DNA from: Sphingomonadales bacterium
Lineage (GTDB): Bacteria; Pseudomonadota; Alphaproteobacteria; SMXS01
Assembly (NCBI GenBank): GCA_022844405.1
Contig: JALHLV010000024.1
Location: 1 to 54,636, forward strand
Length of the DNA stretch: 54,636 nucleotides
Reading direction: 5' to 3'
This document shows, piece after piece, positions 41,742-44,091 of this stretch (position 1 is the first letter of the stretch; the number at the start of each line of letters is the position of its first letter). The notes beneath the pieces were generated by a model, which did not search any database, had not been told where the DNA came from, and saw nothing but the letters and a program-made list of their open reading frames with translations. The position numbers were made by a program, and so were the translations under genes.

Positions 41742-42362
41742 TTAGACGGCTTGGCTGTACAGCCAGGGCTGCGAGGCGTGCTGCTTCGCTTCGAAGCTGT
41801 CGATGCTGGCCTTCTTTTCCAGCGTCAGGCCGATGTCGTCCAGGCCGTTCAGCAGGCAGTGCTTGCGGAACGGATCGATCTCGAAGCGGATCTTGCCGCC
41901 GTCGGGGCCGGTGATCTCCTGGGTTTCCAGGTCAACCGACACGATGGCGTTGGCGCCGCGCTCGGCGTCGTCCATCAGCTTGTCCACGTCCGACTGGGGC
42001 AGCACGATCGGCAGGATGCCGTTCTTGAAGCAGTTGTTGTAGAAAATGTCGGCGAAGCTGGGCGCGATGACGCAGGTGATGCCGAAATCCAGGATCGCCC
42101 AGGGCGCATGCTCGCGCGACGAGCCGCAGCCGAAGTTCTCGCCGGCCACCAGGATCTTGGCCTGGCGGTAGGCGGGCTGGTTCAGCACGAATTCCGGCTT
42201 CTCCGACCCGTCCTGGTTGAAGCGCATCTCGTCGAACAGGCCGCGGCCGAGACCGTCGCGGGAGATGACCTTCAGGAACTGCTTCGGGATGATCATGTCG
42301 GTGTCGACGTTGATCATGGGCAGCGGCGCCGCCACGCCGGTCAGCTTGGTGAACTTGTCCAT
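41742..42362 (-). CDS. leuD: 3-isopropylmalate dehydratase small subunit
   Basis: LeuD is the small subunit of isopropylmalate isomerase, carrying the swivelling domain. [13 protein letters not shown] and [16 protein letters not shown] are the family motifs. The frame is open upstream to 42419, but the ATG at 42362 is preceded by GAGGAG and gives the standard N-terminus (206 residues). An 86-base gap and a small ORF separate it from leuC. Confidence 0.96.
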
Positions 42363-42448
42363 CGGTCTCTCCTCAATACCGAAGAGGGCCGGGTAACCGG
42401 CCCCCTGTCGTGGTCGCATCCGCTTCCAGCAATGGCCGGAGCCGCAGA

Positions 42449-42625
42449 CTAGTTCTTCACCTTGATGATGCCGAACTCGCCCTTGGTGCCGTCGAAATCG
42501 TCGGCGATGCCGAGGACGTGCAGCCTTTCCATACGCGGCCTTTCCTCGGCCGACGCATGTTCCTTCGCCAGCTCGATCGCGCGGCGGAGGGTTGCGGCCC
42601 AGAGTTCGTCACTGATCAGCGCCAT
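42449..42625 (-). CDS. Small ORF (58 codons) between leuC and leuD, function unknown
   Basis: An unbroken 58-codon frame runs from ATG 42625 to TAG at 42449, on the operon strand. It is preceded by GGAG nine bases upstream of the ATG. The start is [20 protein letters not shown], the middle is rich in charged residues, and it ends FGIIKVKN. Third positions are mostly G or C, as in the genes beside it. It starts 37 bases after leuC. I do not recognise the protein; the first half looks like an amphipathic helix. Confidence 0.55.
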
Positions 42626-42662
42626 GGTGTCGTTCTCCCCATATTCACGCGGTGCGAAAAAC

Positions 42663-44072
42663 CTATTGGAAGTCGCGCACGTCGACCAGATGTCCGGCGA
42701 TGGCGGCGGCGGCGGCCATGGCGGGGCTCATCAGATGGGTGCGCCCGCCGCGGCCCTGGCGGCCTTCGAAATTGCGGTTCGAGGTCGACGCGCAGCGCTC
42801 GCCCGGCTCCAGCCGGTCGGCGTTCATGGCCAGGCACATGGAACAGCCCGGCTCGCGCCATTCGAAGCCGGCCTCGACGAAGATCTTGTCGAGCCCTTCG
42901 GCCTCGGCCTGTTCCTTCACCAGGCCCGAGCCTGGCACGACCATGGCGCTGGTCACGTTCGGCGCGACCTTGCGGCCCTTGGCGATGACGGCGGCGGCGC
43001 GCATGTCCTCGATCCGGCCGTTGGTGCACGAGCCGATGAACACCCGGTCGACAGCCACGTCGGTCAGCTTGGTGCGCGGCGTCAGGCCCATGTAATCCAG
43101 CGACCGCTCGGTGGCGTGACGGCGGCTGTCCTCGGCGAAATCCTCCGGCGCGGGCACGCTGCCGGTGATCGGCAGCACGTCCTGCGGGCTGGTGCCCCAG
43201 GTGACCTGCGGCGCGATCTCGTTGCCGTCGAGGGTGATCTCCACGTCGAATTTGGCGCCCGGATCGGTCTTCAGGTCGCGCCATGCGGCGACGGCCATTT
43301 CCCACGCCGCGCCCTTCGGCGCCAGCGGGCGGCCCTTGAAATACTCGACCGTCTTCTCGTCGGCGGCGATCAGGCCGGCGCGGGCGCCCGCCTCGATGGT
43401 CATGTTGCAGACCGTCATGCGGCCTTCCATGGACAGCGCCTCGATCACCGGGCCGGCGAACTCGACCACGTAGCCTGTGCCGCCGGCGGTGCCGAGCCTG
43501 CCGATGATGGCGAGCACCACGTCCTTGGCGGTGACGCCCACGGGCAGCGTACCGGTGACGGTGACGCGCATGTTCTTCGAGCGCTTCTGGATCAGCGTCT
43601 GGGTGGCGAGCACATGCTCGACCTCGGACGTGCCGATGCCGAACGCCAGCGCGCCGAACGCGCCGTGCGTCGCGGTGTGCGAGTCGCCGCAGACGATGGT
43701 GGTGCCCGGCAGGGTGAAGCCCTGCTCCGGCCCGATGACGTGGACGATGCCCTGGCGGATGTCGTCCATGCCCAGATAGGTCACGCCGAACTCGCGGGCG
43801 TTGTTCTCGAGGGTCTGGACCTGCACGGCGGATTCGGGATCGGCGATGCCGTTGGCGCGGCCGAGCGTGGGCACGTTGTGGTCCGGCACGGCGAGCGTGG
43901 CCTCCGGACGGTGCACCGTGCGACCGGCCATGCGCAGGCCTTCGAAGGCCTGCGGGCTGGTCACCTCGTGAACCAGGTGGCGATCGATGTAGAGGACACA
44001 GGTGCCGTCCTCCGCCTGATGCACCAGGTGGCTATCCCAGATCTTGTCGTAGAGCGTCTTAGGTCCGCTCAT
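42663..44072 (-). CDS. leuC: 3-isopropylmalate dehydratase large subunit
   Basis: LeuC binds the 4Fe-4S cluster and, with LeuD, isomerises 2- to 3-isopropylmalate. Cluster cysteines are in [12 protein letters not shown] and [30 protein letters not shown] is another family signature. ATG 44072 (469 residues, [17 protein letters not shown]) follows AGGAGA; the open frame upstream is rplS in another frame. It begins 19 bases after the rplS stop, so ribosomal and leucine genes share a transcript. Confidence 0.97.
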
Positions 44073-44091
44073 CGGGCAGGTCTCCTGTAGG

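Follow-up and report, generated by a model that had tools for sequence, protein, structure and literature searches.

The window, by which we mean the whole stretch of DNA analysed (54,636 nt), carries leuC and leuD on its minus strand with a small gene between them. Read along that strand, the order is leuC, 37 nt, the small gene, 86 nt, leuD and a further frame, which from its sequence we take to be leuB-like. The features of this region are:

42663 to 44078, minus strand: leuC, 3-isopropylmalate dehydratase large subunit, the upstream partner (TIGR00170, 822.5 bits); the start codon is among the first few codons of this interval
42626 to 42662, minus strand: spacer between leuC and the small gene, from the sequence; an SD-like GGGGAG ends 9 nt before the ATG
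42449 to 42625, minus strand: small gene encoding a conserved protein of unknown function (58 codons, stop included in the interval; from eight intact orthologues, dN/dS and third-position excess)
42383 to 42406, minus strand: GC-rich hairpin located after the small gene and before the ribosome site of leuD (from its fold; 10-bp stem, 4-nt loop)
41742 to 42362, minus strand: leuD, 3-isopropylmalate dehydratase small subunit, the downstream partner (TIGR00171, 261.8 bits)

The first-pass annotation had proposed a 58-codon frame in the leuC-leuD gap, preceded by a GGAG ribosome site. Both are present as claimed: the coordinates agree, and GGAG, contained within GGGGAG, stands nine bases ahead of the ATG of the small gene. 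Downstream of the preceding in-frame stop, this ATG (at 42625) is the earliest start codon, and the frame ends with a TAG codon (42451-42449). The SD-like site in front of it reads TGGGGAGA in the window, AGGGGAGA in six of the seven relatives and AGGGAGAG in the sister genus. The GC content at codon positions 1/2/3 is 0.64/0.40/0.84 for the small gene and 0.59/0.37/0.95 for leuD. As the window (66% GC) contains 278 frames of at least 58 amino acids, the open length of the small gene taken alone is little evidence that it is a gene. On the plus strand, a 542-codon open frame (42462-44090) overlaps leuC and the small gene in antisense; it is one of several long antisense frames and we read it as an artefact of GC content and codon bias.

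The small gene was found in eight genomes in a search of 96. Within the order, eight of ten genomes carry it, comprising seven out of seven in the genus, the single genome of a second genus and neither of the two genomes of a third. In these counts the relatives' records are metagenome bins, and loci L009-L012, which duplicate the contigs of L002, L003, L004 and L006, were not counted again. All eight orthologues are intact and share the same start, and the leuC-small gene-leuD order and strand are kept, also in the sister genus. Each of the encoded proteins opens with MALISDE; compared with the window copy, they are 84-96% identical within the genus and 62% identical in the sister genus, and 31 columns are invariant across the alignment of the eight sequences. 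In one of the two genomes of the third genus, which belongs to the same family (G008), leuC and leuD are 14 nt apart and the small gene is absent there. The contig of the other (G009) stops inside leuC, so that the absence of the small gene from this genome is uninformative. A tree of LeuC and LeuD from 19 genomes pairs G008 with G007, in which the small gene is present (support 94.8/94), and a LeuD tree of 26 genomes likewise pairs these two (support 86/92). Provided that the operon follows the species and that the tree is rooted outside the family, the most parsimonious history would place the small gene in the family ancestor, with a loss in G008.

A profile of the eight sequences was used to search more widely. 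In the class, 8 out of 385 genomes matched at E up to 0.01 (five of the own family and three weak others) and 23 out of 385 at E up to 0.1 (four own-family carriers and 19 weak others), the two samples of 385 genomes largely overlapping. In the phylum, 2 out of 398 genomes matched, being the genome under study and one weak other. The matches outside the own family reach at most 21 bits, are partial and mostly lie inside much longer open frames. As the E-values are per genome, about 38 chance matches are expected at E 0.1 in 385 genomes; therefore, none was counted outside the family, and distant homologues outside the order were rejected because the matches there are partial, at chance level and no stronger than this. 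Plasmid matches were also rejected (five records at E 0.1-0.5, four of them annotated as traA and one without annotation). A search for a second copy in the own genome returned none at E up to 10. By these searches the small-gene family is narrow, restricted to a single bacterial family and thus to one lineage.

Of the 56 columns per codon position, 7, 8 and 30 vary among the genus members at positions 1, 2 and 3, respectively, and the third-position excess over equal shares is marked (P = 5e-6 within the genus, 6e-4 over all eight sequences). Pooled dN/dS of the small gene, which like the other pooled selection figures is descriptive because pairs share ancestry, amounts to 0.144 for comparisons inside the genus and to 0.190 for those between genera. 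From codon alignments the corresponding values are 0.142 and 0.145 for leuC, and 0.148 and 0.145 for leuD. The within-genus constraint on the small gene is thus that on leuC and leuD. Between genera the small protein changes faster, with a pN of 0.246 versus 0.122 for leuC and 0.137 for leuD. In the frame of the small gene, pooled pN/pS is 0.18; the two remaining sense frames reach approximately 2, and the three antisense frames have values of 3.9, 0.40 and 1.9.

These data bear directly on the reading of the small gene as a chance open frame in GC-rich DNA. The abundance of frames of this length in the window is in line with such an origin, one antisense frame is also stop-free in the eight sequences, and another, with one stop, has the pooled pN/pS of 0.40. 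Against this, the frame of the small gene is stop-free in eight out of eight sequences, its variable columns are concentrated at the third codon position, and its pN/pS is far below the 1.9-3.9 of four other frames and below that of the fifth. We therefore reject a chance origin, to which we give next to no probability. An orthologous frame in relatives and an excess of silent change had both been put forward from the sequence as signs of a gene; the former is seen as intact frames with the same start and position in all eight genomes, the latter in the distribution of variable columns and the low dN/dS, and together they strongly support the coding claim. On the comparative data, with eight intact orthologues, an SD-like site and a within-genus dN/dS of 0.144, the 58-codon frame is a genuine protein-coding gene under purifying selection.

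The spacer between the small gene and leuD contains a hairpin whose arms are invariant in 18 of 20 columns in all seven genus members, with none of the four loop columns invariant. The spacer preceding the hairpin has 11 invariant columns out of 43 (P = 1.5e-6 versus the arms, a descriptive value because the columns were chosen after the alignment had been inspected). There is no support from covariation, with both sides changed in 0 of 10 stem pairs, because the hairpin is too invariant to show any. A terminator scan did not call the hairpin, which falls short of its T-run rule, and detected no terminator-like site nearby; Rfam gave three matches in the window between 38000 and 47000, all of which score below their gathering scores and lie away from the small gene. 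That the hairpin is a genomic repeat was rejected, since the genome contains a single copy of the motif plus TCTT tail; within two mismatches, the motif is found in three places in the window versus 2.7 expected. In the sister genus, the spacer between the small gene and leuD is 28-31 nt long and this hairpin sequence is absent, while the protein is kept; a 5-bp GC hairpin can be drawn by eye in that spacer. Also by eye, the 3' arm of the hairpin and its tail (CUCUUC) could pair with the leuD SD (GAGGAGAG). A switch involving the hairpin and the leuD SD is conceivable, and it is plausible that the hairpin acts inside the operon as an element for stabilisation, processing or weak attenuation.

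The conservation of the hairpin arms directly before the leuD ribosome site in all members of the genus also fits a role of the frame in cis, in which translation would ferry ribosomes over the gap and set leuD expression together with the hairpin, the peptide itself having little or no function. We consider this unlikely, however, as there is selection on the amino acids (dN/dS 0.14), the sister genus retains the protein with a spacer of about 30 nt and without this hairpin sequence, and the protein has no leucine-sensing run, since leucine accounts for 6 of its 58 residues, none of which are adjacent.

Leucine codons are the hallmark of leu leader peptides. In leuL-type attenuators, a run of leucine codons is located before a terminator hairpin at the 5' end of the operon. 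The small gene resembles such leaders in its shortness, its place in a leu operon and the hairpin that follows it. Unlike a leuL-type leader, it follows leuC, encodes 58 amino acids without a leucine run and is conserved as a protein. We rejected the leader peptide reading based on the location after leuC, the scattered leucines and the result of the terminator scan.

A small protein encoded next to leuC has been described in another alphaproteobacterium. The available part of the report on Sinorhizobium meliloti places SEP18, a translated small ORF, upstream of leuC; its translation was validated with a tagged protein by western blot, and it was missed in one annotation (PMC10117765). The same part names SEP10 and SEP18 as resembling the ribosomal proteins S21 and L7/12, and a 38-aa reading of SM2011_c05019 cites the same figure, though its identity with SEP18 is not settled there (PMC10117765). 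Like the product of the small gene, SEP18 is, on this account (PMC10117765), an alphaproteobacterial small protein encoded beside leuC, but it lies upstream of leuC whereas the small gene lies between leuC and leuD, and the two are likened by position, not by sequence. SEP18 may therefore serve as a precedent for small proteins beside leuC, with no kinship implied. Among the matches listed in the literature searches, titles and abstract openings mentioned no gene between leuC and leuD and named no dedicated LeuCD accessory, and the phrase "between leuC and leuD" was not found in the papers searched for this exact wording.

The small protein consists of 58 amino acids (6.5 kDa, pI 5.6) and contains no cysteine. 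It is predicted to be soluble; even over the most hydrophobic stretch of 19 residues, hydropathy averages no more than 0.6. An AlphaFold2 model based on the eight sequences shows a long helix (residues 6-22), a short helix (29-33) and two strands (35-37 and 54-56), at moderate confidence (mean pLDDT 69.7, pTM 0.50, with residues 42-52 below 50). Conservation is high over the predicted long helix, with 19 of the 23 positions from residue 2 to 24 invariant in all eight orthologues. Searches of Pfam, NCBIfam, PHROGs and PADLOC with the window protein gave no families at E up to 1, nor did Pfam for any of the eight orthologues at E up to 10. Comparison to the PDB by sequence yielded nothing meaningful (best E 0.66). 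A fold comparison, with the moderate-confidence model as query, returned 13 Foldseek matches (best E 7.4) and a best Z of 2.6, and the small protein may have a known fold all the same. In these PDB comparisons, no relative by sequence or by fold points to a function.

Going solely by its position, we favour the view that the small gene encodes a co-expressed, lineage-restricted small protein of the leu operon that would most likely bind or tune LeuC/LeuD, to which we assign a probability of about 0.38. The small gene would be translated from the leu mRNA using its own ribosome site, and the product would be a soluble mini-protein of helices and strands made alongside LeuC and LeuD. The location of its gene suggests that it might then bind or modulate isopropylmalate isomerase, through assembly, stability or activity. 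The genetic linkage of the small gene with leuC and leuD holds for eight out of eight orthologues, and this conserved position fits a putative LeuCD accessory. A dedicated accessory of this kind would be a small protein not described before, acting as a subunit of isopropylmalate isomerase or as its modulator, with its gene fixed between the two subunit genes in one alphaproteobacterial family and its product made together with theirs; this is possible but doubtful.

The leuC-leuD gap in other families puts this position into perspective. Outside the family, we surveyed 58 genomes in which leuC was matched; 42 of them have an adjacent leuD, defined as located within 5 kb downstream of the best leuC match and on the same strand (16 of the 58 fail this definition). 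The gap is at most 60 nt in 26 of these 42 pairs, 61-150 nt in one and more than 150 nt in 15; the value for G045 is too high, its leuC match being cut off next to masked bases. The first-pass statement that such gaps are usually short thus describes 26 of the pairs well and does not hold for the 15 long ones. Eight of the 15 long gaps supplied ten frames for a Pfam scan, in which nine matched families unrelated to leucine synthesis and one matched none. Four of the matching frames, from three bacterial families, encode RDD-family proteins; the other five correspond to DUF4282, DUF4893, a metallo-beta-lactamase-superfamily protein, an IrrE-like HTH protein and DUF4411. These genes occupy the same genomic slot as the small gene, but they differ from it in sequence and are larger (101-407 aa for the ten scanned frames). 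No diverged orthologues of the small gene were recognized by eye in the 15 gaps of more than 150 nt, considering frames of at least 35 aa that fit into the gap, up to the seven longest in each (G073 has no frame of that size, and the gap of G045 is mostly masked, as N, and not judgeable).

As gaps elsewhere often hold unrelated genes, position alone is weak evidence for a function in LeuCD. The 15 long gaps among the 42 pairs and their content are consistent with a different explanation, in which the small protein is real but has a role outside leucine synthesis, and owes its expression from the leu operon to a gap that tolerates insertions. We consider this nearly as likely as a small protein acting on LeuCD. 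It sits less easily with the identical position of the gene in all eight orthologues, including the sister genus, and with a within-genus constraint that matches that on leuC and leuD. The first-pass annotation had left the choice between an accessory of LeuCD and a small protein with no relation to it; the linkage in all orthologues speaks for the former, whereas the gap genes of other families and the lack of the small gene in G008 speak against it, and because of these two observations the link to LeuCD is that of a candidate.

The small gene brings a strongly constrained and lineage-restricted small protein into the biology of a widespread amino-acid pathway. It is also a clean test case for whether small genes nested in operons act on the enzymes of their neighbours or merely ride along. 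If the small protein does bind LeuCD, this would constitute a new control point on leucine synthesis.

Among the genes found in the gap elsewhere, RDD proteins recur in three alphaproteobacterial families, filling the leuC-leuD gap of G044 (L055), G074 (L058) and G072 (L069), the last of which has two RDD-family proteins in one gap. In G062 (L066), a gene for an IrrE-like metallopeptidase/HTH protein followed by a DUF4411 gene lies between leuC and leuD, a pair that presumably resembles a putative toxin-antitoxin unit.
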